A DNA stretch of 48,722 nucleotides, taken from the NCBI GenBank assembly GCA_003331425.1, contig QOOS01000009.1:1-48722 (forward strand), given 5' to 3'. The stretch comes from Candidatus Nitrosopumilus sp. Lineage in GTDB: Archaea > Thermoproteota > Nitrososphaeria > Nitrososphaerales > Nitrosopumilaceae. Of this stretch, positions 6,476 through 43,589 are shown piece by piece. The notes beneath the pieces are model-generated. The model ran no database searches, was not told where the DNA came from, and saw nothing but the letters and a program-made list of their open reading frames with translations. The position numbers and the translations under genes are program-made. Numbering within the stretch: position 1 is the stretch's first letter; each line of letters opens with the position of its first letter.

Positions 6476-6799
6476 TTAAGGGGTTACCTTTTCTAATTTC
6501 TCTTGGATTTTGTCATAATACCCATTTTGTTCGTATGCTGGAACGTTAAATGTTGCAGATATTATGTCACCCACTTTGGCTTGGCAGTTTTCTACAACCA
6601 CTGAGTGTCCTAGTGATGATTCCCCTACACAGCCAATCTCTGTTGTTGCAATAACTTGGACATCCTCAGTTACTGATGTTGGTACAATGTTCCATGGTGT
6701 GATTGTAAACACCAAGATAACAGCCGTAGCGATTGAAATAATTGCTAAAAATTTCAATGCTGGTGATTTTTGTTGTTTTGTCTGTTGCATTGTGTTCAC
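6476..6799 (-). CDS. Membrane-anchored hypothetical protein
   Basis: A 107-aa protein with one N-terminal helix (about residues 16-37, ALKFLAIISIATAVILVFTI) and a small outward domain with two cysteines (Cys57 and Cys71, a possible disulfide). A GTG at 6799 is preferred to the ATG at 6790 because it lies 23 bp from the centre of the TATA box (6814-6827) and 47 bp from the TTAGCACTA site at 6847-6855, the spacing seen at other genes with this site. Function unknown. Confidence 0.6.
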   Translation of the reverse strand: MNTMQQTKQQKSPALKFLAIISIATAVILVFTITPWNIVPTSVTEDVQVIATTEIGCVGESSLGHSVVVENCQAKVGDIISATFNVPAYEQNGYYDKIQEKLEKVTP

Positions 6800-6846
6800 T
6801 TGTAATAGTAGAACTTTTTATTTAAAATAGTGGTAAGTATTGATTA

Positions 6847-6855
6847 TAGTGCTAA
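6847..6855 (-). promoter_or_regulatory. TTAGCACTA promoter element (site 1)
   Basis: Exact motif on the minus strand, 47 bp before the GTG of the membrane-anchored protein at 6799, just upstream of its TATA box. It overlaps the stop codon of the zinc-ribbon gene at 6852. Confidence 0.6.
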
Positions 6856-6991: not shown

Positions 6992-7414
6992 CTAAATTCC
7001 CTTCATGCGCTTTGAATAATCATAGTGAAATATTTTTTTTGGTGTTATTTCAATTGCAATTTCATTTTTTGAGTGACTTAGTAGAAATTTTGATAATGTT
7101 GATTCCTTATCTCCTAAATATTTTTTAATTAAAATTTTCAATATTTCTGGACCTTTGGCTGGTATAATTTTAACAATTCCTTCACCTCGTGAGCCCTTGT
7201 ATGGTGGTTGATCTGCTGCTATTTCAAATCCACATGTGGGTTTGTTTTCCAAGTAATGTAGAATCTTTGCAGTTTTTTGTGTTGCACAATATATTTTTCC
7301 ATTTATGTCAATATACCATAATGAAATAATTGATGGAGCTCCGTTTGGTTTGATAAATCCTATCCTAATTGGTATCTTTGTATCTGGAGCTAATTCTCTT
7401 TCTATGTATTGCAT
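6992..7414 (-). CDS. FMN-binding split-barrel (PPOX-like) protein
   Basis: A 140-aa protein with the pyridoxamine-phosphate-oxidase-like split barrel: an N-terminal IPIRIGFIKPNGAPSIISLWY strand pair, IYCATQKTAKILHYLENKP (the usual cofactor-binding stretch, about residues 41-59), then a GEGIVKIIPAKG strand. Archaeal members bind FMN, F420 or haem. Substrate cannot be told from sequence. It is followed directly by a zinc-ribbon mini-protein. Confidence 0.75.
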   Translation of the reverse strand: MQYIERELAPDTKIPIRIGFIKPNGAPSIISLWYIDINGKIYCATQKTAKILHYLENKPTCGFEIAADQPPYKGSRGEGIVKIIPAKGPEILKILIKKYLGDKESTLSKFLLSHSKNEIAIEITPKKIFHYDYSKRMKGI

Positions 7415-7483
7415 TTAATTACCTCATCAAGCAACAGACAGTTTTATTTTTTTTTGTATATGAACAATTTATGATATTTTCTA

Positions 7484-7492
7484 TAGTGCTAA
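7484..7492 (+). promoter_or_regulatory. TAGTGCTAA promoter element (site 2, reverse orientation)
   Basis: Exact reverse complement of the motif, 51 bp before the ATG at 7544 and about 20 bp upstream of its TATA box (CTTAAAATAC, about 7513-7522). Confidence 0.6.
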
Positions 7493-7543: not shown

Positions 7544-8224
7544 ATGAAAAAATTATTTTTACTAGTTTTCATTGTAATGTTAATTTCTATATCTCCTGCA
7601 TATGGCCATAAATTAATTAGCCATGATGACTCCCATAGGGATTTTGATTCTGCATTAGTGATACCTGATCATAAAATTTCATGGGCAATTTATGAGAATC
7701 TAGGCGTGGAAGAATCCAAATTTTATACATTTGACGCAAAAAAGGGTGATTCATTTTATGCAAGTATTGTGATTCCAAACCTTGAAGGATTGGAAAAATA
7801 TTCTCCCTCATTAATTTTAATGAATGATGATTTGTATACTGGAGATGGACCCTCAACAAATATCGAATCTAGTGTTCAAAAATTTCTCTATGAAGGGGAT
7901 TATCCTGGAAATGAATTTTACGAACCTTTTGGACAGGTAACTTATTGGGAAAGACAGGAGGTTAACACAATTATTCCTGAAGATGGCCAGTATTTCATTT
8001 TAGTACTAGATGAGAAAAATCAAAGTGGAAAATATAGTTTAGCAATTGGTACTATTGAAGATTTTTCTGGTGCTGATTTTTTTACTATACTTCCTAAAGC
8101 CTGGTTTGACACAAGAATTTTTGTAAATGACTATGCTGGACTTGCAATTGGAATTTCTATACTTGTTGGAATCCCTGTAATGTTAGCATTGATAATTTTG
8201 AGAAATAAAATATTTCGAAGATAA
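7544..8224 (+). CDS. Secreted protein with C-terminal membrane anchor
   Basis: A 226-aa protein with a signal peptide (about residues 1-21, ending AYG), a His/Asp-rich start of the mature part (HKLISHDDSHRDFD), a beta-rich domain (about residues 45-170) and one C-terminal helix (about residues 198-219) with a basic tail (RNKIFRR). The topology puts the domain outside the cell, tethered by its C-terminus. The His/Asp cluster could bind metal. No family recognised. Confidence 0.65.
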   Translation: MKKLFLLVFIVMLISISPAYGHKLISHDDSHRDFDSALVIPDHKISWAIYENLGVEESKFYTFDAKKGDSFYASIVIPNLEGLEKYSPSLILMNDDLYTGDGPSTNIESSVQKFLYEGDYPGNEFYEPFGQVTYWERQEVNTIIPEDGQYFILVLDEKNQSGKYSLAIGTIEDFSGADFFTILPKAWFDTRIFVNDYAGLAIGISILVGIPVMLALIILRNKIFRR

Positions 8225-8250
8225 GAAATAAGAAAATATTTTAAAATTTT

Positions 8251-8433
8251 CTATTTTTTCTTACTTCGTGGTTTTGTTCTTAATACTGCTTTGCAACACA
8301 TGCATCTGACATCTTCAGATTCCAGAAAGATTCCACAAAATGTGCAACGCTTTTGTCCTATTTCATACCTAATTTTATTAGGCACTGATTCTGCTTGGTG
8401 TCTTTTGCAGATATTTCTACAAGTTCTACCCAA
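8251..8433 (-). CDS. Zinc-binding mini-protein, paralogue of 42320 gene
   Basis: A 60-aa basic protein with an N-terminal Cys pair (CRNIC), then IRYEIGQKRCTFCGIFLES, a CMCC knuckle and VLRTKPRSKKK. The second half matches the protein at 42320 closely (YAAGQKRCQICEIF, WCPCCGYMLRTHPR), so the two define a small family. It begins inside the end of the TFB gene (8-bp overlap) and is probably translated from the same mRNA. Role unknown; the basic tail may bind nucleic acid. Confidence 0.7.
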   Translation of the reverse strand: MGRTCRNICKRHQAESVPNKIRYEIGQKRCTFCGIFLESEDVRCMCCKAVLRTKPRSKKK

Positions 8434-9337
8434 GTTTCACATCTCCTACTTTGTTGACAATTTCTTTTCTTCTTTCTCTTATGGTTACAGCACTAATTCC
8501 TGATACTTTGGATATTTTTAGCTGTGATACTTTTTCAGCATTTGTAGTTGCTGCTAGGTGTATTGCTGCTGCTGCCATGGCCATTGGATTTTTACTTGTG
8601 GATACGTACTTTTTTGCGCACAAATCAAGTATTTTGAAGCTCAATCTTTGTGTTTTTTCAGATAAAGCCAATTCTTTTGCAATTCTGGTGACAAATTCTG
8701 ATGGTGTGTATGATTCAGGGGATATGTCCATTTCTTTTGCAAGGAATCTGTATGTTCTTTGTAGTACTTTTTTCTTGATGTTTGCTGCATCTGAAATATC
8801 CTGCAGTGTTCTAGGTGTATCTGTAATTCTACATGTTGCATAAATTGTAGCAGATAACATAGCTGCAGTTGATCTTCCTGCAAGAATCTTTCTTGCAGCA
8901 ATTTTTCTAAACAAATATGCGCTTTCTTCAACAACTGATTCAGGTAGGCCCAACTTTGAACCTATTGCATCAAGCAAAGTGAATGCTTTTTGAAATGATT
9001 TGGATGTGACAGCAGAGCGGCTATTTCTATCCCACATTCTTAATCGGTAGAACATTCGTCTGTTTTCAACTGATAGTGATTTACCTGTAACATCTCTATC
9101 TTTGGCTTCAATTAATGTAGATAGTCCCATATCTATCATCTTTAAAGATCTTTTTGCACCAACTCTTGAATTATTTTGGTAATCTGCTGAGCTGCCACCT
9201 GACATCTCTGCGCCCAGATCTATAATTGGTTCGGATGATACTATTCCGCAGTTACTACATGCAATCTCCCCAGTTTGTATGTCAGTAACTAATTCATGTT
9301 TCTTACAATTTTTTTGATGTACTAATTCAGTTAACAT
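8426..9337 (-). CDS. Transcription initiation factor TFB, divergent paralogue
   Basis: A 303-aa archaeal TFIIB homologue that bridges TBP-bound promoters to RNA polymerase. It has an N-terminal zinc ribbon C11-x2-H14 and C27-x2-C30 and two cyclin-like repeats (about residues 110-200 and 205-300; the second ends in an HTH at ISAVTIRERRKEIV). Unlike the other TFB here (18494), one zinc ligand is His. The conserved B-reader phrase (PEWRSF there) is replaced by AEMSGG. The promoter has a TATA box near 9355-9365 and a TTAGCACTA element 48 bp before the ATG, so this TFB is itself regulated by that system. It may serve a subset of promoters. Confidence 0.9.
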   Translation of the reverse strand: MLTELVHQKNCKKHELVTDIQTGEIACSNCGIVSSEPIIDLGAEMSGGSSADYQNNSRVGAKRSLKMIDMGLSTLIEAKDRDVTGKSLSVENRRMFYRLRMWDRNSRSAVTSKSFQKAFTLLDAIGSKLGLPESVVEESAYLFRKIAARKILAGRSTAAMLSATIYATCRITDTPRTLQDISDAANIKKKVLQRTYRFLAKEMDISPESYTPSEFVTRIAKELALSEKTQRLSFKILDLCAKKYVSTSKNPMAMAAAAIHLAATTNAEKVSQLKISKVSGISAVTIRERRKEIVNKVGDVKLG

Positions 9338-9385
9338 ATCGACTTTATGCTTTTATTTTATTTAAGAGACCGAAGAAATTTCTAC

Positions 9386-9394
9386 TAGTGCTAA
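9386..9394 (-). promoter_or_regulatory. TTAGCACTA promoter element (site 3)
   Basis: Exact motif on the minus strand, 48 bp before the ATG of the TFB at 9337 and about 20 bp upstream of its TATA-like run. Confidence 0.65.
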
Positions 9395-9451
9395 ATTTAT
9401 TAATAAAAAAAGTCATTTTTGTCTTTTTACCACTAGGAAATTACGTATTTG

Positions 9452-9460
9452 TTAGCACTA
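9452..9460 (+). promoter_or_regulatory. TTAGCACTA promoter element (site 4)
   Basis: Exact motif 48 bp before the ATG at 9509; the TATA-like CTTTTAATACG (about 9479-9489) lies between. It forms a divergent pair with site 3, facing away from it, 57 bp apart. Confidence 0.65.
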
Positions 9461-9508
9461 TTCACATTTTATTTCTGTCTTTTAATACGATAAATCTGAC
9501 AGAAAGTT

Positions 9509-9871
9509 ATGCCTCATATTGTGTTGGATAGAAAATTGGATCTTTTTGATTTTGCAATTTTATTCAAACCAATTTTTCAAAAATCCCCTTTAATTAAAAT
9601 TCATGAAATGTACACTAATGTTGCTGGAACCAATTCATTGTTTTCAACAGTTGTTATTGATTCCTCTCATCGTGATTACTTTATCCAAGTAATGTCTAGT
9701 AAAGACAGAACCACAATTAGATTGTTCCCAGGTACTGATCCTGAAAAAACTGATGCAGTAAAACAATCTTTAGCAAATCTTTGTTTACAAATACTGGATT
9801 CATACCCTGACATGAAAGTTGTAAAATCAAATTTATGGGAGTATCTAAAAATCCCAATTGTAAATGAGTAA
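9509..9871 (+). CDS. Hypothetical protein, first gene of SRPBCC operon
   Basis: A 120-aa soluble alpha/beta protein with no recognised family (start MPHIVLDRKLDLFDFAILFKP). It has a motif-bearing promoter and overlaps the SRPBCC gene by eight bases, so the two are translated together and probably work together. Confidence 0.7.
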   Translation: MPHIVLDRKLDLFDFAILFKPIFQKSPLIKIHEMYTNVAGTNSLFSTVVIDSSHRDYFIQVMSSKDRTTIRLFPGTDPEKTDAVKQSLANLCLQILDSYPDMKVVKSNLWEYLKIPIVNE

Positions 9872-10304
9872 ATTTAATCTTATTCAAAAAAGTAACCTTG
9901 ATAGAGATTTAATTTTTAAAATTAGTACTGACGTTGAAAATTTTCACAAGGTGATGCCTGAATATTTTAAATCCTTAAAAATTATAAGTAATTCATCAAG
10001 TGAAAAAATTGTTTTAGAATCAATAGCATTTGTTGGTAGGCAAATTGAAATTAAAACTAAACATGTGATAATTCAACCAAATTTGCATAAAGTGTTTATT
10101 TTGACTGGTCCTGCAAAAGGTACGTCATTTATTGAAACATATGTCCCAAGTTCAGTTGGAACAGATATTTCAATTGAAGTTGATTTACAATTAACGGGAA
10201 TTTTGAAACTAATTCCCTTTCTCAAAATCTTTTTACTGAAAAAGATGAATACTGTGATGTCTGAATTCATTACTTGTGCTGAATCATATTCTAAATCTAT
10301 GTAA
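9864..10304 (+). CDS. SRPBCC (START-like) domain protein
   Basis: A 146-aa protein with the layout of the SRPBCC/polyketide-cyclase superfamily, which binds hydrophobic ligands in a helix-grip cavity: an N-terminal strand and helix (about residues 1-30, with DVENFHKVMPEYF), a run of antiparallel strands (residues 36-110) and a long C-terminal helix (about 113-140). It overlaps the upstream gene by eight bases and precedes the desaturase-like flavoprotein. SRPBCC proteins are frequent partners of carotenoid and light-stress genes in bacterial CarH/LitR regulons; a lipid or carotenoid ligand is inferred. Confidence 0.65.
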   Translation: MSKFNLIQKSNLDRDLIFKISTDVENFHKVMPEYFKSLKIISNSSSEKIVLESIAFVGRQIEIKTKHVIIQPNLHKVFILTGPAKGTSFIETYVPSSVGTDISIEVDLQLTGILKLIPFLKIFLLKKMNTVMSEFITCAESYSKSM

Positions 10305-10310
10305 AATTAG

Positions 10311-10319
10311 TTAGCACTA
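10311..10319 (+). promoter_or_regulatory. TTAGCACTA promoter element (site 5)
   Basis: Exact motif 48 bp before the ATG at 10368, with TATA box TGTTAAATACAA (about 10339-10349). It gives the desaturase-like gene its own promoter although the SRPBCC gene lies just upstream. Confidence 0.65.
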
Positions 10320-10367
10320 TAAAATTAAGTTAGCCTCTGTTAAATACAAAAATTATTGAATTTAGGC

Positions 10368-11717
10368 ATGTCTGCACCTACAATAATTATTGGCGCTGGG
10401 GTAGGTGGGTTAACCACTGGTGCAATGTTAGCAAATAAAGGTCATAATGTAATGATTTTAGAAAAATCTTCCAAATTAGGTGGAAGGACTGCTGCTATGG
10501 AATACAAAAACCATATTTTGGATAATGGTTTTCATATAATGCCATTTTACAAAAAATCTGCTATATTTACAATTTTAAAAAATTTGGGAATTGAATCACG
10601 ATTAAAACTTGCAAAAGTTGATGATATTGCATTCTATGCTGAAACAGGATTTCACATTTATCCAAAAGGAATGGTGGATTTACTAAAATTATCTCTAATT
10701 CCATTCAAAAGTAGAGTTAGACTTCTCAAATTGTTACTCCCATTGGCATTTTCTTCAATTGAAAAAACAGAATTATGGGATGAGGTACCATTAACAAAAA
10801 TAACTGATAATTTGGACGCAGATACAAATGCATTTTTTGAAGCAGTATGTATGTTAGCATTTGCTGACACTGCTGATCATATTTCTTTAGGTGAATTTGC
10901 TAGAACCATTATTAGAGCAAATCCGTTTAAGGGTGGAACAAGTGAGTTTGCGTATCCTGATGGTGGCGGTTATGATTCAATTTGTAAGGTTCTTGGCAAA
11001 TACATTTCTGAAAAGAATGGAGAGATTCAAACAAAACATTCTGTAAAAAAAGTGATTGTTGAAGATTCTAAAGTTACTGGAGTTATTGTAATTGATTCCT
11101 CTAATTCTGAAAAACTTATTGAAACAAACTCTGTTGTTATTTCTTATCCTGCATATACTGCGTTAAATCAATTGTTTGATGAAAACGTGATAGACAAAAA
11201 ATTTGTTCAAAAAATTGACAAGCTAAATAAGACAACTTCTGTGGTTGAAGTGCATTTTGCACTAAATTCTCAAATAGACACTCGTCAAGTTGTTTTTCCA
11301 GTAGGGGATAATTATGTAACAAAGGGCATCTTTTTTATTTCTAACATTACTCCCTCTGTGTCTCCAAAAGGTGAGCATTTGATCATTGCAGGCACACCTG
11401 TGCTTCCTTCAGAAACTGAAGATTCTGACAAAATAAAAAATATTGTTGCTAAAATGAAGCAAGAAATTGCATCAATTTATCCAAATTTTGATTCATCTTT
11501 GTTGTGGGAACGTCCTATGGCTTGGAAATTAGTGGAATCTGTTGTTAAGGAACCTGGAAAAGTATGGAAATCAAAAATGCCTCATCAAATTCCTGGAATA
11601 GATGGATTGTTTTTTGTAGGTGACTCTACTGTCAGTTATGGAATTGGAACAGACTCAGCAGCTCACAGCTCCATTTTATGTACTCCAAAAATTGAATCTT
11701 TTTTAACTTCTAATTAG
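10368..11717 (+). CDS. Phytoene desaturase-like FAD-dependent oxidoreductase
   Basis: Flavoprotein of 449 aa in the amine oxidase/phytoene desaturase (CrtI) superfamily, which dehydrogenates or isomerises polyenes and related lipids. The N-terminus has the dinucleotide fold IIIGAGVGGLTTGAML, followed by ILEKSSKLGGR, and the C-terminus has the second FAD contact GLFFVGDSTVSYGIGTDSAAHS. The substrate is not certain; carotenoid or isoprenoid chemistry is likely. The ATG at 10368 is chosen over a TTG at 10356 because it fits both TATA and motif spacing and the usual CrtI start. It converges with the B12-binding protein gene, overlapping it by eight bases. Confidence 0.82.
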   Translation: MSAPTIIIGAGVGGLTTGAMLANKGHNVMILEKSSKLGGRTAAMEYKNHILDNGFHIMPFYKKSAIFTILKNLGIESRLKLAKVDDIAFYAETGFHIYPKGMVDLLKLSLIPFKSRVRLLKLLLPLAFSSIEKTELWDEVPLTKITDNLDADTNAFFEAVCMLAFADTADHISLGEFARTIIRANPFKGGTSEFAYPDGGGYDSICKVLGKYISEKNGEIQTKHSVKKVIVEDSKVTGVIVIDSSNSEKLIETNSVVISYPAYTALNQLFDENVIDKKFVQKIDKLNKTTSVVEVHFALNSQIDTRQVVFPVGDNYVTKGIFFISNITPSVSPKGEHLIIAGTPVLPSETEDSDKIKNIVAKMKQEIASIYPNFDSSLLWERPMAWKLVESVVKEPGKVWKSKMPHQIPGIDGLFFVGDSTVSYGIGTDSAAHSSILCTPKIESFLTSN

Positions 11718-12564
11718 TTGCTGGAATTTTACGTAAAATTTTTGGAATATCTTCTAGGTTTGTATCTCCTATCACATTACCTTCAAACTTTGGGGGATTC
11801 TCAATTTGTAATGCATGACCTCCAATCAAAATTGGAGTTTTACTACTCTCTCTAATTTTTTTTGCTAATCTCTGACCTGCTAAAATATTATCTGGAATTG
11901 TAATTGAAATTAAAACAATATCTGGTTTTTTCATATTGATGAATTCCATTATTGAATCAGTTGGTATTGATGTTCCCATATTGAAAACTTTGAATCCTTT
12001 TATTGTGAGATATGTTTCTAGCACATCACACCCAATATGGTGTTCTTCTCCAACTGGCACACAAATCATAATTTTTTTCTTATTTCCTGAACCTGATACC
12101 TGATCCATGATAATTTTTACTAGTGTCTGAGCAACGTTACTTGCAACATGTTCTGTGGCAATTGATAATTTTCCACTATCCCAATCTTCTCCAATTTTAC
12201 TCATTACTGGTCTGAGAATTTTATCAAAGAAATCTGATATGTTAAATATTTCAACATAATTTTTGTAAATTTTAATACATTCTTCTAAATTTCCATCTGT
12301 TAATTTTTTAAATAATTGCTGTTTTGATTTTTTTGTTGCATCCTCTCTTTTTTGAATGTCTTCAGGGTTATAGGATGCTAGTACAGATAAAATTTTAGCA
12401 TCATTTCTAAATTCAGTAGGGATATCGTCTTTAACTACTTCTGATGCCTTGCCTAGATATTTTACAATCTCTTGTTTTGATGTACTTTTTTTAGAATCCC
12501 ACACACTTTTTACTAAATAGAGATATTGATCTGATTTGACTTTTTTAGCCCTAATGTAGACCAT
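11710..12564 (-). CDS. CarH-like B12-binding protein with transposase-like N-terminus
   Basis: A 284-aa protein. Residues about 85-155 form the helical cap of methylcobalamin-type B12-binding modules, with the W(x9)EH signature (W128, E138, H139) found in the photoreceptor CarH. Residues about 163-280 form the Rossmann B12 domain, with E173-x-H175-x-x-G178 (DxHxxG with Asp replaced by Glu), ISITIP and IGGH. H175 would be the cobalt ligand. The N-terminal 45 residues are not MerR: they resemble the short domain at the start of IS1634-type transposases (YIRAKKVKSDQYLYLVKS, KYLGKA). The residue after W128 is Asp, whereas CarH has the light-state His ligand there. The start at 12564 has a TATA box (about 12584-12592) and a variant TTGGCACTA 48 bp away; an upstream start at 12621 would place this element inside the gene. 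A light or B12 sensor is inferred; a corrinoid carrier is the alternative. Confidence 0.8.
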   Translation of the reverse strand: MVYIRAKKVKSDQYLYLVKSVWDSKKSTSKQEIVKYLGKASEVVKDDIPTEFRNDAKILSVLASYNPEDIQKREDATKKSKQQLFKKLTDGNLEECIKIYKNYVEIFNISDFFDKILRPVMSKIGEDWDSGKLSIATEHVASNVAQTLVKIIMDQVSGSGNKKKIMICVPVGEEHHIGCDVLETYLTIKGFKVFNMGTSIPTDSIMEFINMKKPDIVLISITIPDNILAGQRLAKKIRESSKTPILIGGHALQIENPPKFEGNVIGDTNLEDIPKILRKIPATN

Positions 12565-12612
12565 CAAATTTATTGAATTTTTAGATATATAACTAATGGT
12601 AACCATTCTTCC

Positions 12613-12621
12613 TAGTGCCAA
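12613..12621 (-). promoter_or_regulatory. TTGGCACTA variant promoter element (site 6)
   Basis: One mismatch from the consensus, on the minus strand, exactly 48 bp before the ATG at 12564 of the B12-binding protein. The TATA-like TTATATATC lies between, at about 12584-12592. It suggests that the sensor gene belongs to the same regulon. Confidence 0.5.
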
Positions 12622-12642
12622 ATATTTTTTAAATTTAATTTA

Positions 12643-12651
12643 TTAGCACTA
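12643..12651 (+). promoter_or_regulatory. TTAGCACTA promoter element (site 7)
   Basis: Exact motif 49 bp before the ATG at 12701, with TATA box GGTTAAATATCAT (about 12669-12681). It forms a divergent pair with site 6, 21 bp apart. Confidence 0.65.
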
Positions 12652-12700
12652 GCTCTAACACTTATCGTCGGTTAAATATCATAAATCAAAAAACATTATC

Positions 12701-12898
12701 ATGGCAGGAACAGAAGAACAAGAATGGGCTAACCTTCTTGCAGAAATCTTTGACAAACTTACACAAAAACACGCCGCAATCACTTATGAGTTTGACAATC
12801 TAGAAATGGCTGGTAAGATTATGAAAGATAAGCAAGTTGTCCCAACTGGTACAGTTTCCCTTAGTGGAAAACTAACCATTACAGCAAAAGAAAAATAG
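12701..12898 (+). CDS. Small conserved-looking protein, 65 aa
   Basis: Soluble protein: an acidic N-terminal helix (EEQEWANLLAEIFDKL), then two or three beta strands ending GTVSLSGKLTITAKEK. It heads a three-gene operon (12701-14707) with spacings of 1-13 bp, under a TTAGCACTA promoter. No family recognised; the strand pattern resembles part of the next protein. Confidence 0.65.
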   Translation: MAGTEEQEWANLLAEIFDKLTQKHAAITYEFDNLEMAGKIMKDKQVVPTGTVSLSGKLTITAKEK

Positions 12899-12911
12899 AG
12901 TGTGGTTGACA

Positions 12912-13277
12912 ATGAAAGACTTTGATCTACCCGCTAATTTTTTATCTTATCTAGATAAAGGAAAATTAAGTATCACATGTGATGATGAACCCACAATTAA
13001 TTTTCGTGTTGAAGGAAGTACAAAAATTATTGATATAATTGATATTCCAATTGAAATTAATAAGATGCCTGGATTTTTAAAACAACTTTCTGAGGCAAAA
13101 GAACTTGCAAAGGATTTAGCAAAGAAAAAAACAACTATAGAAGTACGTTTCAAAGGTGACATTGTATTGAAATTAGGTGAAAAAGCAAACCCAAAACTAG
13201 CAAAAATTGTTACCAGAAGTGGTGATATAGAAATCACTGATTTGAGAAAATTAAAAAAATTGAGTGATGTATTTTAA
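12912..13277 (+). CDS. Hypothetical protein, possible lipid-carrier-like fold
   Basis: A 121-aa protein (ATG at 12912; GTG at 12900 possible). It is a mix of strands and helices with a central charged helix (FLKQLSEAKELAKDLAKKKT, about residues 52-71), then strands carrying IEVRFKGDIVLKLGEKANPKLAKIV. This strand order recalls SCP2-like sterol carrier domains, but the match is weak. Second gene of the SDR operon. Confidence 0.6.
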   Translation: MKDFDLPANFLSYLDKGKLSITCDDEPTINFRVEGSTKIIDIIDIPIEINKMPGFLKQLSEAKELAKDLAKKKTTIEVRFKGDIVLKLGEKANPKLAKIVTRSGDIEITDLRKLKKLSDVF

Positions 13278-13279
13278 TA

Positions 13280-14707
13280 ATGTCCACTGATTTCTCACAA
13301 AAGAAACCCTTTGATATTTTGGTCACTGGCTCTACTGGATTTATTGGTAAAAAACTACTTACCAAATTATCTGATTCTGGACTGAAGATTAGAGCCATGT
13401 CTAGATCTAAATACCCTGATACTGAAAATGTACAACACGTTCAAGCTGATGCATTTGATGTTGAATCATTAACTGCTGCAACTGACGGCATTGAAACTGC
13501 ATTTTATTTACTTCATTCTATGGAAGGCTCAAAAAAGGAATGGGCAGAATTTGCAAATAGGGAAAAACAGCAGGCTCAAAATTTTTTGCAAGCTGCCACT
13601 AAATCTGGTGTTAAGAGAATTGTATATCTAGGCGGTCTGGTCAATGAAAGTCTTGAATTATCTAAACATATGAGAAGTAGACATGAAGTTGGGAAAATTT
13701 TAGCATCTGGAAGTATTCCCGTAACTGAATTAAGGGCATCAGTAATTGTTGGTGCTGAAGGTGGTTCTTATGCTATGCTTCGATATCTTGTTGAACGATT
13801 GCCTTTAATGGTATGTCCAAAATGGGTTAAATCTCAAACACAACCAATTGCAGTTGATGATGTTGTTGATTATCTAATAGGTGTAATGAAAAATTCTGAT
13901 ACATCAGGAAAAATTTTAGAAATTGGTGGACCTGATATAATGACTTATGAACAATTAATGAGATTGTATTCATCAATTTTGAATAGAAATCTTAACATTA
14001 TTCAAATCCCATTTTTAACACCGCGTTTATCTTCTTATTGGATTGATTTAGTTACTCCTGTAAAGGCTTCTTTAGCAAGACCTCTTGTTGATAGTTTGGT
14101 TCATGACTCAATTGTTAAAGACAAATCTGTTCAACAATTAGTTCCAGTTCATCTTAAACACATGACAGAAGCAATTGCTGTTGCTAGGGAAGAAGCAAAA
14201 TCATTTGAATCCATTAGAAAATCACCTGAAGAAAAAACATCTTACAAAATGAACCAAAAAATTCTTTTGATTAGTCTTTGTGCTATGGCTTTCATTGGCA
14301 CAACATACTATTGGATGGATGATAGAACTGATGTCTGGGAAATTCCTTGGTTAATTGGTTCAATCATTTGGTATGCTGCAATTCTTTTTGCAATATCTTT
14401 TGTTAAACAAAAGGCAAGATTGGGATATTTGATAGGTGGAATATTGGCTTGGGTAACTTTGGCATTTTGGTTATTTGATAATTTCTATGTTGTATTTGAA
14501 CTCTCATTAGTCGCATCAGAACCTAGTATTGACGTTACTATAAGAAATTTCATTGGTGCAGCAATTGCAGGATTGGCAATATTCTCTTCACACAATGTAT
14601 TTCATAAAGTAAGAGTTTACCAAGCCCGTGGTGAACCTGTTATTGAGTCTGCTTCTGCAGAAGTACCTGAGGGTGCCAGACCTGTATACAATACTGACTT
14701 TTCTTAA
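13280..14707 (+). CDS. NAD(P)-binding SDR protein with C-terminal membrane domain
   Basis: A 475-aa fusion. Residues about 10-300 are an atypical short-chain dehydrogenase/NmrA-like domain: Rossmann motif VTGSTGFIGKKL, AFYLLHSM, RIVYLGGLV and TELRASVIVG. Residues about 325-450 hold four hydrophobic helices with a WYAAILFAISF-type composition and an aromatic-rich lumen side. Proteins of this SDR class occur in bacterial light and photo-oxidative stress regulons. The reaction is unknown; a lipid or quinone substrate is plausible because of the membrane part. It is the last gene of the 12701-14707 operon, starting two bases after the previous stop. Confidence 0.75.
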   Translation: MSTDFSQKKPFDILVTGSTGFIGKKLLTKLSDSGLKIRAMSRSKYPDTENVQHVQADAFDVESLTAATDGIETAFYLLHSMEGSKKEWAEFANREKQQAQNFLQAATKSGVKRIVYLGGLVNESLELSKHMRSRHEVGKILASGSIPVTELRASVIVGAEGGSYAMLRYLVERLPLMVCPKWVKSQTQPIAVDDVVDYLIGVMKNSDTSGKILEIGGPDIMTYEQLMRLYSSILNRNLNIIQIPFLTPRLSSYWIDLVTPVKASLARPLVDSLVHDSIVKDKSVQQLVPVHLKHMTEAIAVAREEAKSFESIRKSPEEKTSYKMNQKILLISLCAMAFIGTTYYWMDDRTDVWEIPWLIGSIIWYAAILFAISFVKQKARLGYLIGGILAWVTLAFWLFDNFYVVFELSLVASEPSIDVTIRNFIGAAIAGLAIFSSHNVFHKVRVYQARGEPVIESASAEVPEGARPVYNTDFS

Positions 14708-14719
14708 TTTAAAATAATT

Positions 14720-14827
14720 TTACCCTTTAATTTTCTGACACTGTAGGCATAATTTTGTATTTTTCAGTAGATTACATGTACAAATATTATGACAATTTTG
14801 ACATTGTGATACTATCGTACTAAACAT
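14720..14827 (-). CDS. Cysteine-rich zinc mini-protein, 35 aa
   Basis: A very short gene facing the SDR operon. Seven of 35 residues are cysteine or histidine in zinc-type spacing (CQNCHNICTC, then CLQC). Chance ORFs in this AT-rich DNA rarely have this pattern. The remaining 104 bp up to the DUF1722 gene show nothing else. Function unknown. Confidence 0.5.
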   Translation of the reverse strand: MFSTIVSQCQNCHNICTCNLLKNTKLCLQCQKIKG

Positions 14828-14931
14828 TTGATTATGTTATTTTATTACTGAATTATAAGAATAAGTTTGATTCTATGCCCTTGTTACATGAACGTGGTTT
14901 TATTTTTAATCATTATTTTCTAGTAGAAAAT

Positions 14932-15459
14932 CTAATTTCCTTCATCATTACTTTGTAGCATTTTGAAGATATTGCCTTTTTCTGGGCTTGCATATAACAA
15001 AAAATATGTTTGAGATGAAAGATATGTCTTATTGAATCTAAATACTATTGGATGAATTTCTGCAAGTATGTCTCCAATTGTCATTTTTTCATCTTTATAG
15101 TTTTTTAATAATTCAAAGAATTTTTCTTTTTCTAAATCTGAAAATTCCTTAGAGAAAAAACCAAAAATATGCATTATTACGTTACTATGTGTTTTGTTAG
15201 TGGGCTTATACTGTAAACATAGGTTTAGATTTTTTTCATAATCGTTTAATATTTCTGAAAGTTTCACTTTTTTGTTACTGGCAACAATCCTTCCTAATAC
15301 CTTCAATTCTTCTTGATTATGGGCCATTATCAAAAATTTATTCATTGCCTGAAATTCAACTAATTCTTTTACTTTGTTACTTTTTTTTACACTTTGAAAT
15401 CTATTTAGAACAAATTCTTTGATTTCTTTTTGAGTTAACACTTTGTGATAGTCTTGCAT
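14932..15459 (-). CDS. Stand-alone DUF1722 (YbgA C-terminal) protein
   Basis: A 175-aa protein matching the DUF1722 domain: NKFLIMAHNQEELKVLGRIVA (about residues 40-60), then HSNVIMHIFGFFSKEFSDLEKEKFFELL (about 91-118) and YLSSQTYFLLYASP near the end. In bacteria DUF1722 is usually fused to DUF523 (YbgA) and sits next to DNA photolyase and B12 photoreceptor genes. Here it lacks DUF523; a fused paralogue is at 42621. A TATA box (TTTATATG, about 15514-15525) lies about 55-65 bp upstream of the ATG, and a motif copy (15549-15557) about 22 bp beyond that, so this mRNA probably has a leader of about 35 nt. Confidence 0.75.
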   Translation of the reverse strand: MQDYHKVLTQKEIKEFVLNRFQSVKKSNKVKELVEFQAMNKFLIMAHNQEELKVLGRIVASNKKVKLSEILNDYEKNLNLCLQYKPTNKTHSNVIMHIFGFFSKEFSDLEKEKFFELLKNYKDEKMTIGDILAEIHPIVFRFNKTYLSSQTYFLLYASPEKGNIFKMLQSNDEGN

Positions 15460-15548
15460 TATAGTTTCATCCTGTTTTTACTCCGTAACTTGTCATACAC
15501 GATGATCGATTATGATTTGCATATAAAGAACTCCTGATAGATTTATCG

Positions 15549-15557
15549 TTAGCACTA
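15549..15557 (-). promoter_or_regulatory. Motif copy (site 8), probably for the DUF1722 gene
   Basis: Exact TTAGCACTA on the plus strand. For the minus-strand DUF1722 gene it lies about 22 bp upstream of the TATA box, the same motif-to-TATA distance as elsewhere. It could also act as a second site for the plus-strand gene at 15632. Confidence 0.5.
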
Positions 15558-15573
15558 TATTTTTTGTAAATAA

Positions 15574-15582
15574 TTAGCACTA
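15574..15582 (+). promoter_or_regulatory. TTAGCACTA promoter element (site 9)
   Basis: Exact motif 49 bp before the ATG at 15632, with TATA box TTTTAAATATAAT at 15601-15613. It lies 16 bp from site 8. Confidence 0.65.
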
Positions 15583-15631
15583 GAATATGATTTGGCACCA
15601 TTTTAAATATAATTAGCGAAATTTCTCTATA

Positions 15632-16543
15632 ATGAAAACTCTCTTAACTGCAATTTCAACAATTGCTGTATTGCTGCTTGTTGGCTCAAGTGTATCTGCT
15701 GTTTATGCAGAAGTTCCATCTTGGGTAAAGAACAATGCAGGCTGGTGGGCAGAAGGAACAATTGATGACGATTCATTTGTTCAAGGAATTCAATTCTTGA
15801 TCAAAGAAGGAATCATGGAAATTCCTCCAACCACACAAGGAGTAAGTTCTAGTAATGAAATCCCATCCTGGATTAAAAACAATGCTGGCTGGTGGGCAGA
15901 AGGAACAATTGATGACGATTCATTTGTTCAAGGAATTCAATTCTTGATCAAAGAAGGAATCATGAGTATCACACAAGTACAAGAATCCGAACAATCTGTA
16001 TCTTCTGTTTCAACAAGCGATGACTCTGTTATTGCTTCACTGGAGGCAGAACTTGAAAAATGTTCAGAAATAGTCAAAGCATACAAGAGACTTGATTGTG
16101 AAAAACCAATTAAACAAGAAATTCTTGTTCATACATACAAAACTGGCGCTGAATTAATGCAAGTAGGACCAATCAATTATTATTGGTTTGGTGTAAATTC
16201 TGAGGGTAATTCCTTTGAAATTAGTCCTACAGGACAACCAATTTTGAATATCAGAATGTTGGCCGACAACACTTCTTCAGGTATTGTTAGTTTGAATTGT
16301 ACAAGTCCTTCAATTTGTAACTATGATGTTTGGGACGGTTCAAAATCCTTCAAGTACTCTGGAATGGATTTTACTAGTGGACAAATCAATCTAAACCCTG
16401 GAACTGCTAAGGAATTCAATATTTTGTTTGGTCCGAATATTGGATATGGTGGAACTGAATTTGAATATGATCCTTCAAAGACATACACTTTCAGAATCAA
16501 TGAACCATTTGGTAGTTTAGATGTTCACCTAGACTTGGAATAA
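15632..16543 (+). CDS. Secreted protein with two WIKNNAGWWA modules
   Basis: A 303-aa exported protein with a signal peptide (residues 1-26, ending VYA). Two nearly identical 40-residue modules follow (about residues 28-66 and 76-114), each with WxKNNAGWWAEGTIDDDSF and GIQFLIKEGIM. A short coiled-coil-like linker (SLEAELEKCSEI, about 135-146) and a beta-rich C-terminal domain (about 165-303) containing CTSPSICNYDVWDGSKSF come next. The same C-terminal domain ends the next protein. The two modules are also near-identical in DNA, suggesting recent duplication or gene conversion. Surface-attachment or sensing roles are possible; function unknown. Confidence 0.8.
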   Translation: MKTLLTAISTIAVLLLVGSSVSAVYAEVPSWVKNNAGWWAEGTIDDDSFVQGIQFLIKEGIMEIPPTTQGVSSSNEIPSWIKNNAGWWAEGTIDDDSFVQGIQFLIKEGIMSITQVQESEQSVSSVSTSDDSVIASLEAELEKCSEIVKAYKRLDCEKPIKQEILVHTYKTGAELMQVGPINYYWFGVNSEGNSFEISPTGQPILNIRMLADNTSSGIVSLNCTSPSICNYDVWDGSKSFKYSGMDFTSGQINLNPGTAKEFNILFGPNIGYGGTEFEYDPSKTYTFRINEPFGSLDVHLDLE

Positions 16544-16581
16544 CTCTTTTTTCTTATTTTTATTTTATTTTACATATGTAG

Positions 16582-16590
16582 TTAGCACTA
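16582..16590 (+). promoter_or_regulatory. TTAGCACTA promoter element (site 10)
   Basis: Exact motif 49 bp before the ATG at 16640, with TATA-like TTTTATATAATT around 16609-16620. Confidence 0.65.
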
Positions 16591-16639
16591 TTCATAACTA
16601 GTTCTAGTTTTTATATAATTAAAATAAAATATTTTTTTT

Positions 16640-17911
16640 ATGAAACTATTATTTGTGATTATTCCATTACTCGTTTTTTCAATTCCTGTTGCATTTGCTG
16701 AACCCTCTAATGTTGGAAATATGTATTGGAAACAAGAAATCATTTCACCAAATTCGTTTGTTGATATTTACGTTCATGATGATGACATGAATAAAAAAGA
16801 ATATCCTAACTTTGCTGATAAATTTACAATATCTGTGTGGTCTGATTCATCTCCTGATGGTCTTGAAATAGAAGTTGTTGAAACTGGAGTTTATAGTGGG
16901 ATTTTCAAAGGACGTGTTTTTATTGCTGATTCTGGCGACACGCTAAAAAATAGACTAGTTTCAATGCCTGGTGATACCGTTTATGGAAAATATGTTGATT
17001 TTACAATGCCTGATGGTTCTACATCAGAAATATTTTCTGCTGCAATTGTTAAGATCTCTGGTCAAAACATGAACTCACTTCTTGATAAAATAGATCCAAA
17101 ATTCCGTGCATCTGCTGAAAAGGTTCCATCCTGGATTAAAAACAATGCAGGTTGGTGGGCTAATGATGATATTGATGATGATTCTTTCATTCAAGGAATT
17201 CAGTTTTTAATTAAAGAAAAAATTCTTGAAATTAGCGAAACAACTACTGCAGATAAAAGTGATAAAATTCCTGCTTGGGTAAAGAATAATGCAGGTTGGT
17301 GGGCCGAGGGTCAAATTACTGAGTCTGATTTTCTTAGTGGAATTACACATCTTGTAAAAACTGGAATTATTTCAGTTGGTAATGATTCTGTTGACTCTGC
17401 TTCAGATATTGATCCTATACTAGCTGAATGTCAATCAATTAAATCCACATACAAACGACTCAATTGTGAAAAAGAAATAAAACAAAAACTTGAATTTATT
17501 GAATTCAAACAATCTTCAGTTGGATATGGTGTTGGTCCAATAACTTACTATTATCCTGGAATTGGTAATTTTGGTAATGAATTTGAAATTAGTTCTTCTG
17601 GTCAAGCAATGCTTCGATTAAGGATTTTAGCTGAAAATACTGGTAATGATGTTGTTTCATTAAAGTGTACAGGACCATCAATTTGCAGTTATGATGTTTG
17701 GGATGGTTCTAAGGCATTCAAATATGCTGGAATGGATTTTGTATCTGGCCAAATTCCAATAAATCCTGGAACCTCTGTTATTTTTAACATGATGTTTGGT
17801 CCGAATATTGGATACGGTGGAAATCAATTTGAGTACGATTCTTCAAAGAGTTATAATTTTAGAGTTAATGAAAACTTTGGAAGTATAGATATTCCATTAA
17901 AAATTGAGTGA
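16640..17911 (+). CDS. Secreted paralogue with N-terminal beta domain and two WIKNNAGWWA modules
   Basis: A 423-aa exported protein: signal peptide (residues 1-20, ending AFA), then an extra beta domain (about 25-145) with VVETGVYSGIFKGRVF, similar to S-layer-type repeats and to the 1320 protein. Two Trp-rich modules follow (about 157-198 and 210-250). The C-terminal domain (about 285-423) shares with the 15632 protein the phrases CTGPSICSYDVWDGSKAFKYAGMDF and FGPNIGYGG. The two genes are tandem paralogues with separate but similar promoters. Function unknown. Confidence 0.8.
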   Translation: MKLLFVIIPLLVFSIPVAFAEPSNVGNMYWKQEIISPNSFVDIYVHDDDMNKKEYPNFADKFTISVWSDSSPDGLEIEVVETGVYSGIFKGRVFIADSGDTLKNRLVSMPGDTVYGKYVDFTMPDGSTSEIFSAAIVKISGQNMNSLLDKIDPKFRASAEKVPSWIKNNAGWWANDDIDDDSFIQGIQFLIKEKILEISETTTADKSDKIPAWVKNNAGWWAEGQITESDFLSGITHLVKTGIISVGNDSVDSASDIDPILAECQSIKSTYKRLNCEKEIKQKLEFIEFKQSSVGYGVGPITYYYPGIGNFGNEFEISSSGQAMLRLRILAENTGNDVVSLKCTGPSICSYDVWDGSKAFKYAGMDFVSGQIPINPGTSVIFNMMFGPNIGYGGNQFEYDSSKSYNFRVNENFGSIDIPLKIE

Positions 17912-17923
17912 AAAATTTCTAGT

Positions 17924-18484
17924 TTAATCGTAAACCATCAAGTCTTTTTCTTCTAATAGACTATGAATTTGGTGAACTGAGCGATGAATTTCTTTCTCAA
18001 GTTTAGCTCCAACACAAACAAGTTTTCCTGATGCAAAAATCAAGATGACTGTTTTTGGATCAAGCATTCTGTGAATCAATCCAGGGAATTGTTCAGGTTC
18101 GTACATGCTTCTTGGCAATGTTCTTGCTGCTTGCTCCAAGTTGACTTTACCTCCAAGATTAATTGAAGATACGATATTTTGAATTGAAACTACGGCGTCT
18201 TTTTTAATTTTAATTTTACCTTTTCTTAAAATTTTTACAACATTTGAAACTGCAGTTTCAGCTAATTCTTGTGATTTTGCACCAGTACATACCATTTTAC
18301 CTGAACTAAATAGCAATGTTGCAGTCTTTGGGTTTTTTAATCTAAATACTGCTCCTGGGAATTGTTCTGGATGATATTCTACATCTGGGAATTTTTTTGT
18401 AATGTCTACTAGATCTAATTTCTGATCAATTGTTGCAGATGCAACAACGTTTACAATTGCAATTACTGGTTTTGTTTGTGGCAT
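17924..18484 (-). CDS. tbp: TATA-box-binding protein (TBP)
   Basis: A 186-aa general transcription factor that binds and bends the TATA box. It shows the two direct repeats of the saddle fold: VNVVASATIDQKLDL to EQFPGAVFRL and VCTGAKS (about residues 11-85), then QNIVSSINLGGKVNL to EQFPGLIHRM and VCVGAKLEKE (about 102-175). It lies nine bases downstream of a TFB gene on the same strand, so both partners of the preinitiation complex are probably made from one mRNA. It has a short acidic C-terminus. Confidence 0.95.
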   Translation of the reverse strand: MPQTKPVIAIVNVVASATIDQKLDLVDITKKFPDVEYHPEQFPGAVFRLKNPKTATLLFSSGKMVCTGAKSQELAETAVSNVVKILRKGKIKIKKDAVVSIQNIVSSINLGGKVNLEQAARTLPRSMYEPEQFPGLIHRMLDPKTVILIFASGKLVCVGAKLEKEIHRSVHQIHSLLEEKDLMVYD

Positions 18485-18493
18485 TATCTCATT

Positions 18494-19393
18494 CTACCTC
18501 TCAATACTCTGATCTAATCTCAGTCCTTTGTATCTATTTCTAATTGTTACTTCTGTTACGTTAGCAGCTTCTGCGATGTCTCTTTGAGTTCTATCTTCCC
18601 CATTTTTAACACATGACAAATACAATGCTGCTGCTGCAAGTCCCATTGGATCTTTGCCTGCAGATTCTTCGTGCTCTTGTGCTTCTCTTAAAACTTTGAT
18701 TCCGTAACGTTTTGTTTTTTCTGAAATTTGTAATTTACTAGCAATTTTTGCAACACATTGTGTTGGATCAACTACTGGCATTTTTAATTCTAATTCTCTA
18801 TGTAATAGTCTGTAACATCTTGCAATATCTTTTTTCTTAATGTTTCCTGCATCTGCAACATCTTTTAGAGTTCTTGGAGTTTCTGTATCTCTACATGCTG
18901 CATACAATGCTGATGCAATTAATGCAGAAATAGAGCGCCCTTTGACTAATCCTTTTTCTAAAGCCTTTCTGTAAATGTAAGCTGCTTTTTCTATAACTGA
19001 ATCTGAAAGTGAAAGTTTGTCTTTTAATGTGGCAAGTTCGCTTAATGCTTGTCTGAGATTTTTATCTGATGATGCATTTACTTTACTTCTGCTATCCCAA
19101 GTTCTAAGACGTTCAATTGTACTTTTCATTGAAGTTGATAATGGTTTTCCAGATGCATCTTTGTTTAATGGATTGATAATTGTTGCAAGTCCTCTGTCGT
19201 GCATTGTTAATGATGTTGGTGCACCAGTTCGTGTTGGGTCGGCTCCTCCATCTTTAGAAAATGATCTCCATTCTGGTCCTGCATCCTGTAAGGTTTCAGT
19301 AATTACATACCCACATTTGCCACAAAATCTTTCTCCGGTTACAGTATCTGTAGTAATTCCGTGTTTTCCACAACGACCACAAAGTGTATCCAT
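18494..19393 (-). CDS. tfb: Transcription initiation factor TFB (canonical)
   Basis: A 299-aa TFIIB homologue. From the ATG at 19393 it starts MDTLCGRCGKHG and has a four-cysteine zinc ribbon (C5, C8, C24, C27), the B-reader GPEWRSF (about residues 37-43), a linker and two cyclin repeats (about 105-195 and 200-290) ending in an HTH (TEVTIRNRYKGL). An upstream ATG at 19429 is in frame but lies too near the TATA box (TTATATAC, about 19438-19447). It is probably the housekeeping TFB, co-transcribed with TBP. Confidence 0.93.
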   Translation of the reverse strand: MDTLCGRCGKHGITTDTVTGERFCGKCGYVITETLQDAGPEWRSFSKDGGADPTRTGAPTSLTMHDRGLATIINPLNKDASGKPLSTSMKSTIERLRTWDSRSKVNASSDKNLRQALSELATLKDKLSLSDSVIEKAAYIYRKALEKGLVKGRSISALIASALYAACRDTETPRTLKDVADAGNIKKKDIARCYRLLHRELELKMPVVDPTQCVAKIASKLQISEKTKRYGIKVLREAQEHEESAGKDPMGLAAAALYLSCVKNGEDRTQRDIAEAANVTEVTIRNRYKGLRLDQSIER

Positions 19394-33534: not shown

Positions 33535-34230
33535 ATGAGTAAAGATGGATTCAACAAAGATGGATATTGCAAAGCAACTGGAACAAAATTCAATAAAAAA
33601 GGATATGATAAAGATGGATTCAGTAGAAATGGATATGATGAAAATGGATATGATAAAGATGGCATTCACATAGCAACTGGTACTTTGGTTAATACTGCTG
33701 GATTAAACAAAGATGGAAATTATGAAGCAACTGGAACAGCATTCAACAAAGAAGGAAATCACAAAGCAACTGGAACAGAATTCGACGAAGATGGATTCGA
33801 CAAAGATGGATTCAACAAAAATGGATATGATAAAGATGGATTCAACAAAAATGGATATGATAAGAGTGGATATAATCAGGATGGCATTCACATAGCAACT
33901 GGTACTTTGTTTAATACTGCTGGATTAAACAAAGATGGAAATTATGAAACTGGAACAGCATTCAACAAAGATGGTTTCAACAAAGATGGATATGATAAAA
34001 AAGGATATGATGAAAATGGATATGATAAAAATGGATATGATAAAAATAATTTTGATAAAGATGGTACTCACCTAGTAACTCATACTTTGTTTAACACTTC
34101 CGGATTCAACAAAGAAGGAAATCACAAAGCAACTGGAACAAAATTCAACGAAAAAGGATATGATAAAGATGGTTTTGATAAACTAGGAAAGAATAAACAA
34201 GAATTGACGAGTACTAAAGACGAATCATAA
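33535..34230 (+). CDS. Repeat protein of [GY/F]DKDG pentapeptides
   Basis: A 231-aa protein made almost wholly of five-residue units such as GYDKD, GFNKD and GYDEN, with Gly and an aromatic at fixed spacing. Two longer blocks interrupt this (IHIATGTLxNTAGLNKDGNYE, then TGTAFNK). There is no signal peptide or membrane helix. The units suggest a regular beta solenoid or fibre; the Asp/Asn/Gly-rich composition may bind calcium. The tail (KLGKNKQELTSTKDES) is unlike the repeats. Function unknown. Confidence 0.75.
   Translation: MSKDGFNKDGYCKATGTKFNKKGYDKDGFSRNGYDENGYDKDGIHIATGTLVNTAGLNKDGNYEATGTAFNKEGNHKATGTEFDEDGFDKDGFNKNGYDKDGFNKNGYDKSGYNQDGIHIATGTLFNTAGLNKDGNYETGTAFNKDGFNKDGYDKKGYDENGYDKNGYDKNNFDKDGTHLVTHTLFNTSGFNKEGNHKATGTKFNEKGYDKDGFDKLGKNKQELTSTKDES
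33541..34170 (+). repeat. Tandem 15-bp repeats and a ~90-bp duplicated block
   Basis: DNA units like GGATATGATAAAGAT recur many times. A block at 33661-33750 is repeated at 33883-33969 almost identically; the second copy lacks three bases (one codon), so the frame stays open. The high nucleotide identity suggests recent expansion by slippage or unequal recombination. Confidence 0.85.
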
Positions 34231-42563: not shown

Positions 42564-42572
42564 TTAGCACTA
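42564..42572 (+). promoter_or_regulatory. TTAGCACTA promoter element (site 12)
   Basis: Exact motif 48 bp before the ATG at 42621, with TATA-like GTTATAAC (about 42592-42599) between. Confidence 0.65.
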
Positions 42573-42620
42573 TCAAAATTTCAAATTCCCAGTTATAACT
42601 AATGAATATCAAATTTTGAT

Positions 42621-43589
42621 ATGGTTGATTATGCGCGCCCAATTATTGGAATCAGTAAATGTTTAGAATTTGATATGTGTAGATATGATGGAAGTAGAAT
42701 TAATAATAATTTTGTTAGAAATATGAAAAATTATGTGGATTTTGTTCAAGTTTGCCCTGAGGTTGGAATTGGATTGGGTACTCCTAGAAAACCTATTAGA
42801 CTTGTTAAAATTGATGGAGTAAAAAATCTCTATCAACCTTCATCAGAAAAAAATCTAACTAAAGAAATGCACAATTTTACAAAAAAATTTGTTAGCTCTG
42901 TAGATAATCTTGATGGTTTTATCTTTAAACGAGATTCCCCAACATGTGGAATATCTAATGTTAGATTATATCATAAACTGGGTACTGATTCAGGATACCA
43001 AAAAACTTCTGGAATGTTTTCTGAAGGTGTATCTGCAGAATTTCCTAATATGGTTAAGGAAGATGAAAAAAGACTTGAAAATATTACCATTAGGGAGCAT
43101 TTTCTAACAAGGATTTTTGTTTTAGCAAATTTGCGAGAATCTTTAGAATTACAATCTGTTGAAAAACTATTTGAATTCTACTCAAAAAATATGCTTTTAT
43201 TTTTATGTCATGATGAAAAATTAACTGCAGAACTTGGGGTACTATTTACTAATGAGGATAATTTTAAAATTATTTCAAAAAAATTTGAAAATATTATTTA
43301 TGATATTCTATCATTCCCTATTCAAAAATCTCCTATGATTAATACATTTGATTACATGTTTAATTTTGTAAAATCAAAATTGTCTGAATCTGAAAAATCT
43401 CATTATCAATCATTAATTGACGAGTTTGAGAATAATTTAATTACGCATTCAGAAATATCTACACTGCTATATTCTTGGGCATTAAGATATAATGTACAAC
43501 TCATTTTAGATCAATCCCTATTTGATCCCTTTCCAAAAAACTTATTGTTAGATCTAGTTGAATCAAAAAAACAATATTCTGTTTTGTAA
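42621..43589 (+). CDS. YbgA-like DUF523-DUF1722 protein
   Basis: A 322-aa two-domain protein. DUF523 (about residues 8-150) keeps its cysteine marks: GISKCLEFDMCRYDGS, VCPEVGIGLGTPRKPIRLV and KRDSPTCGISNVRLY. DUF1722 (about 190-318) is more diverged (YSKNMLLFLCHDEKLTAELGVLF). In bacteria this pair is linked with DNA photolyase and with B12 photoreceptor regulons; its biochemistry is unsettled. The gene has the same TTAGCACTA promoter as the genes around the CarH-like protein 30 kb away, which supports shared control. Confidence 0.82.
   Translation: MVDYARPIIGISKCLEFDMCRYDGSRINNNFVRNMKNYVDFVQVCPEVGIGLGTPRKPIRLVKIDGVKNLYQPSSEKNLTKEMHNFTKKFVSSVDNLDGFIFKRDSPTCGISNVRLYHKLGTDSGYQKTSGMFSEGVSAEFPNMVKEDEKRLENITIREHFLTRIFVLANLRESLELQSVEKLFEFYSKNMLLFLCHDEKLTAELGVLFTNEDNFKIISKKFENIIYDILSFPIQKSPMINTFDYMFNFVKSKLSESEKSHYQSLIDEFENNLITHSEISTLLYSWALRYNVQLILDQSLFDPFPKNLLLDLVESKKQYSVL

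Follow-up and report, generated by a model that had tools for sequence, protein, structure and literature searches.

Regulators of the CarH/LitR type (TtCarH, 5C8D/5C8E), AdoCbl photoreceptors that act as repressors, combine a MerR helix-turn-helix with a cobalamin-binding domain in which a Trp and a Glu-His pair form the pocket and a His takes the lower position; they are autoregulated and use tandem direct-repeat sites. In TtCarH, where these residues are W131, E141 and H177, the residue after the Trp is His132; the H132A protein in light is mostly tetrameric with a hydroxylated Co(III) species, and the final light state of CarH also requires oxygen (PMC10442372). The photocobilins (SasPcob, 8J2W/8J2X; AbPcob, 8J2Y), which have a C-terminal biliverdin/globin domain of their own, reach a light state with water or hydroxide on cobalt, as monomers and without bis-His ligation (PMC10979010). 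They have the W/EH/lower-His pocket in common with the protein analysed here, and lack an N-terminal module of its type. CtMerR from Chloracidobacterium (8JBS/8JBT), which carries a MerR DNA-binding domain, is light-responsive, and the signature of light response in cobalamin-binding domains was defined, in an experimentally checked workflow, as the motifs GxxW, EH, GxxH and GxxxP (PMC11796333). CtMerR bears these motifs as well. AerR has a B12 domain of similar fold and a regulatory role, and acts through CrtJ. We know of no N-terminal module in AerR comparable to the one described below.

Ammonia-oxidizing archaea are abundant, inhibited by light and major candidate producers of cobalamin in the ocean, and in Nitrosopumilus all steps of the cobalamin pathway are encoded (PMC4303638). 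In a stretch of 48,722 nucleotides from Candidatus Nitrosopumilus sp. (referred to as the window) we have analysed a gene whose product is not a CarH by membership: it has no MerR domain and no His after the Trp, and it scores below the family cut-off. Still, the protein probably works like a B12 photoreceptor-regulator, and it probably acts as a gene switch responsive to light, of a type so far undescribed in archaea. The open-access literature that we searched gave no account of such a protein in archaea, which does not prove that none exists.

The cobalamin-binding domain and the N-terminal module

The plus strand of the gene region has stops throughout; the open reading frame is on the minus strand (Table 1). 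Among NCBIfam families the best match was CarH (NF052513; E-value 2.5e-17), confined to residues 79-253 and reaching 63 bits, far short of the curated cut-off of 400 bits. Photocobilins, CtMerR and CarH took the top ranks in a phmmer search of PDB sequences. The B12 domain is the last one of the protein, whose final residue is 284; a C-terminal biliverdin-binding globin-like domain is absent.

The initial annotation, made from the sequence alone, had placed the residues W128, D129, E138, H139 and H175 correctly. The W-to-His spacing that it likened to CarH was reproduced too: 47 residues separate W from the lower His, as compared with 46 in CarH (W131/H177). Ten residues separate W from E, as in CarH W131/E141. 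We observed all four motifs of the light-response signature; GxxW, EH and GxxH were retained in every full-length member of the family except those of a separate paralog clade.

The AF2 model of the regulator (mean pLDDT 86.9) was closest to a photocobilin (Z 25.7, rmsd 1.7 over 204 residues), followed by CtMerR (Z 22.5) and CarH (Z about 20; with Foldseek, TMt up to 0.86 to the CarH cobalamin-binding domain), and it matched an AerR-type fold as well (7te2, Z 19.9). The fold alone is not proof of a photosensor, because MetH was matched too (Z 20.7).

At residue 129, family members aligned with the Trp have A, E, D, S, Q, K, T, M, I, R, L or V and never His, so that Asp129 does stand, as had been claimed, in place of the cobalt-ligating His of CarH. 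From this it had been concluded that any photochemistry would differ. That conclusion stands in one respect: since the site never holds His, the bis-His switch of CarH is unlikely in the regulator, and by analogy the aqua/hydroxo switch of photocobilins appears likelier. It does not extend to an argument against light sensing, because photocobilins respond without bis-His ligation and CtMerR responds with Arg; in phmmer alignments the position after the Trp is Gln in photocobilins and Arg in CtMerR.

Table 1. Coordinates of the regulator gene, its domains and motifs, and the box-bearing promoters and genes of the window
Feature	Coordinates	Strand	Remarks
Composite upstream of 107-aa gene 6476-6799	6820..6855	minus	3 mismatches at fixed 19-bp gap
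Composite upstream of 140-aa gene 6992-7414	7457..7492	minus	1 mismatch; 78 bp to start codon
TFB-family transcription factor	8426..9337	minus	Pfam PF00382
Composite promoter of TFB gene	9359..9394	minus	0 mismatches
Boxes 9427 and 9452 with TATA, promoter of 120-aa gene and next gene	9427..9487	plus	
120-aa and 146-aa proteins	9509..10304	plus	SRPBCC-like by eye; nothing significant in Pfam
Composite promoter of CrtI/amine-oxidase-like gene	10311..10346	plus	0 mismatches
CrtI/amine-oxidase-like FAD enzyme	10368..11717	plus	Pfam PF01593; convergent with regulator gene
B12-sensor regulator gene, 284 aa	11710..12564	minus (12564->11710)	CarH-like cobalamin-binding domain and transposase-like N-terminal module
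N-terminal three-stranded beta-meander, residues 1-40	12445..12564	minus	proposed DNA-binding module; AF2, HMM
Helical cap B12-binding_2, residues 82-152	12109..12321	minus	Pfam PF02607, E 2.2e-11
GxxW, adenosyl-capping Trp, G125-W128	12181..12192	minus	signature of PMC11796333
EH motif, E138-H139	12148..12153	minus	
B12-binding, Rossmann-type, residues 165-253	11806..12072	minus	Pfam PF02310, E 2.5e-11
GxxH, expected lower cobalt ligand, G172-H175	12040..12051	minus	invariant in alignment A2
GxxxP, G197-P201	11962..11976	minus	Gly not constant among relatives
Composite promoter of regulator gene	12586..12621	minus	box TTGGCACTAG 12612-12621, TATA TTATATA 12586-12592
Degenerate direct repeat TTACCATTAG in regulator promoter	12593-12602	minus	between box and TATA
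Composite promoter of divergent 65-aa, 125-aa and SDR genes	12643..12678	plus	
65-aa protein	12701..12898	plus	heads divergent SDR gene group
125-aa protein	12900..13277	plus	no assigned function; SDR gene group
SDR/NmrA-type oxidoreductase	13280..14707	plus	SDR gene group
Boxes 15549 and 15574 with TATA, promoter of secreted repeat protein at 15632	15549..15609	plus	
Composite promoter of secreted repeat protein at 16640	16582..16617	plus	
Composite promoter of DUF523-DUF1722 gene (42621-43589)	42564..42599	plus	2 mismatches

The initial annotation had also proposed that the MerR domain of CarH is replaced by a transposase-like N-terminus, and both halves of this proposal were borne out. No MerR or helix-turn-helix domain was matched in Pfam or NCBIfam, and AF2 predicted instead an antiparallel three-stranded beta-meander (strands at residues 2-9, 12-23 and 28-39). 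A profile HMM of the module (E-values computed with Z = 20,000) found transposase-like ORFs of a distant genome, over some 40 residues (L135, E-value 8e-8; L136, 1e-5), and the N-terminus of a Fic protein (L138, 2e-4). In two annotated ORFs of the IS1634 family (L118, L124) the pattern is visible by eye; the HMM did not pick up these bona fide members at E-value ≤1. Searches of the module against Pfam, NCBIfam and PDB sequences gave no usable match, and against PDB folds nothing significant (best Foldseek E-value 1.2); ribosomal-protein rows (VIA Z 3.8) and PC4 (2.9) were rejected as fold relatives for insignificance.

Conservation of the regulator is highest in its first 60 residues (mean column identity 70% versus 50% overall), and residues 1-42 hold 10 Lys/Arg versus 4 Asp/Glu. 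This beta module is used in several kinds of proteins; the regulator has it fused to a B12 sensor, with neither a transposase nor a Fic domain. From its transposase context we infer that the module binds DNA, a guess strongly, though indirectly, backed by the conserved, TATA-phased box described below, which is more abundant where the gene is present, and in line with the basic charge. Within the family, the module was also seen fused to an apparent Fic-domain protein in other archaea (L138, L139; genomes G187, G272).

The promoter box and its genes

A conserved element was found in the regions upstream of regulator orthologs. The motif TTAGCACTA, pointed out in the initial annotation, is genuine and over-represented: allowing one mismatch, TTAGCACTAG had 16 matches in the window versus 1.8 expected. 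The exact pattern TTRGCACTAK occurred 26 times in the genome, versus 7 occurrences of the reversed pattern; of the 26, 12 fall within the window and 3 lie close to the photolyase operon. We defined the composite promoter as TTRGCAYTAK-N19-TTAWATA, where Y, the seventh base, is C or T; with no more than one mismatch it was present, 56-58 bp ahead of the start codon, in 34 of the 35 ortholog promoters examined. Of 201 promoter-proximal boxes, 130 were separated from the TATA element by 19 bp and 30 by 20 bp. A box 19 bp upstream of TATA is beyond the usual BRE position in archaeal promoters. At some promoters, that of the regulator included, a degenerate direct repeat lies between box and TATA. 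The proximal motif TTWGCAYTAGTTAWATA taken alone (3 mismatches) did no better genome-wide than the control and was dropped; the distal box and the composite are informative. No Rfam elements were detected in positions 8000-18500.

The regulator was found in 34 of the 60 same-genus genomes, a few of these matches being partial or at contig ends. Orthologs are 61-92% identical with the same N-terminus and, in full-length copies, align from residue 1; the named loci that bear them (68-92% identity) come mostly from Nitrosopumilus and close kin, largely from MAGs and single cells. Elsewhere in the order, other families have diverged full-length relatives that share this N-terminus; one genome contains three copies. 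This conservation is far beyond chance. No relative was seen in the viral contigs searched, and plasmids gave only distant matches to CarH, MetH and other B12 proteins.

The majority of the diverged family members likewise have a single or doubled box ahead of their own gene (a variant such as AGGCATTAG in L141); one such member, L084, has none. The own-gene box in distant lineages is a stronger argument for a link between protein and box than the p-values that follow, which are optimistic as the tests treat genomes as independent although they are kin. Among the 60 same-genus genomes, those with the regulator had on average 13.1 composites versus 3.1 in those without (p = 6e-10); for the reversed-pattern control the figures were 4.6 and 3.4, so the regulator-less composite mean is not above the control. 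With genomes at least 90% complete, the means were 13.4 and 2.4. Another 28 genomes, analysed as a second set, gave the same picture: the motif count minus control differed (p = 1e-4), and so it did outside the genus (p = 6e-4), where the raw counts were not significantly different (p = 0.14). There, composites are scarce in some of the genomes that have the regulator, and one (G102) has none within two mismatches. In family f2 (G060, G087, G095) we counted 30-40 single TTRGCACTAK boxes versus 1-2 of the reversed pattern, with few composites; in G060 the regulator was not found despite the many single boxes. Another genome considered as an exception for its 21 single boxes (G044) was dropped, as it has only one composite.

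Across 59 relative loci the box-preceded genes recur. The composite was also seen ahead of SRPBCC and SDR operons, TFB, DUF523-DUF1722 and secreted-protein genes, and ahead of several photolyase operons, not all. The SDR/NmrA-type gene adjoins the regulator in a further genome (G097), and in three loci (L265, L266, L081) a single island comprises the regulator gene together with CrtI-like, SRPBCC-like, TFB, SDR and photolyase genes. A photolyase was present in 16 of the 34 same-genus genomes with the regulator and in 1 of the 26 without it; for the CrtI-like gene the corresponding counts were 26 and 1. No B12-synthesis gene was recognised among the box-preceded genes.

Proposed mechanism and alternatives

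We consider it probable that the regulator is an AdoCbl-dependent, most likely light-sensing transcription regulator that reads the box and controls photoprotection and stress genes. With slightly more reserve, we favor the fuller reading that an archaeal B12-dependent light-responsive transcription factor, using a beta-sheet module shared with transposases to read a box 19 bp upstream of TATA, controls photoprotection in marine ammonia-oxidizing archaea. Binding of the box by the regulator, AdoCbl as ligand, light as signal and the sign of regulation are what we infer. In such a mechanism the lower ligand of cobalt would be His175, Trp128 and Glu138-His139 would form the pocket for the adenosyl group, and the beta-meander, in place of the MerR helix-turn-helix, would read TTRGCACTAK. 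In the dark the AdoCbl-bound regulator could oligomerise on boxes through the beta-meander; tandem boxes are compatible, by analogy, with a CarH-like dark tetramer on its operator. Illumination would break the Co-C bond and, as the Trp lacks a His neighbour, yield aqua/hydroxo-Co(III); the changed oligomeric state may then alter occupancy and with it the output of photoprotective promoters. The predicted targets are the regulator itself, photolyase operons and the CrtI/amine-oxidase-like, SRPBCC, SDR, DUF523-DUF1722 and TFB genes. Autoregulation and tandem direct repeats would be traits in common with CarH; the box is not that of CarH, and it stands in TATA-type archaeal promoters. Derepression in light would be expected by analogy with CarH; the second box copy beside TATA in the regulator's own promoter suits autorepression, and the strict TATA phasing, with single boxes elsewhere, would also suit an activator.

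The box could be read by another factor, the TFB of the cluster or some other regulator, with the B12 protein acting as co-regulator through protein contacts, in the manner of AerR and CrtJ. The TFB gene itself carries a box, PDB fold searches revealed no DNA-binding fold in the N-terminal module, the AerR-type fold is similar, and AerR proteins are B12-binding co-regulators of CrtJ (PMC9144470). We nevertheless find this unlikely: boxes stand ahead of the regulator's own gene in different families and are more numerous where the regulator is present, no other part of the protein is as well conserved as the N-terminal module, and the box lies past the usual BRE position.

What the protein senses is a separate question. 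AdoCbl binding would be enough for ligand-dependent control, several genes of the regulon are general oxidoreductases, and oxygen is needed for the final light state of CarH (PMC10442372); a sensor of AdoCbl level or of redox/oxidative state is thus conceivable. The complete published light signature, a photolyase within or beside the regulon and the lack of recognised B12-synthesis genes among box genes make such a sensor decidedly unlikely. That the protein is a corrinoid carrier for a methyltransferase seems to us barely credible: the common fold and weak matches to MtbC, MtaC and MetH families point that way, while CarH scores above every methyltransferase family, the regulator is far below the curated cut-offs of MtaC, MtbC and MttC, and the W/EH pocket is conserved. 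A methyltransferase partner, which the initial annotation had set against its own reading, was looked for beside the copies examined and none was recognised.

If the light-sensing reading is true, a B12-based switch would tie the B12 production of these archaea to their light tolerance, and light sensing by ammonia-oxidizing archaea would become directly testable, the predicted operator being a ready reporter and EMSA target for an explicit regulon. B12 photoreceptors would also gain a DNA-reading module without helix-turn-helix, and a module shared with transposases would be seen at work in a regulator.

Paralogs and further box-preceded genes

A paralog in the same genome (G000:C14:32045-32872; L080:8001-8864) has lost the W and EH but still has the N-terminal module and the lower His. 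It is located about 2 kb from a photolyase and adjoins a MEDS-domain gene. A different element, GGTGCGTAAT close to TTAAATA, is common to the promoters of this paralog in four genomes. Among nine counted genomes with a W-less or diverged paralog match, eight have a photolyase; the exception, G021, has a different copy, which retains W and EH. A family of 183-188-aa proteins flanking photolyase carries the box (L080:10361-10912, L080:12343-12903, L182:1558-2124); their identification as DICT domains was rejected, with no Pfam support even at E-value ≤10.

In several Nitrosopumilus genomes the box was seen 57 bp upstream of a gene for a Cys-rich, zinc-ribbon-like protein of about 50-60 aa (L044:9107, L046:11676, L048:10225, L058:6411, L060:11150, L064:11585, L266:3659). 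The window has two DUF1722 genes, at 14932-15459 and 42621-43589, one of which has a box ahead of it and encodes a fusion with DUF523, a 2-thiouracil desulfurase domain. The proteins encoded at positions 15632-17911 and 402-965 look secreted and contain repeated VPSWVKNNAGWWAEG-type motifs; composite promoters precede two of their genes. Positions 33535-34230 encode a 231-aa protein of GxNKDGY-type repeats.
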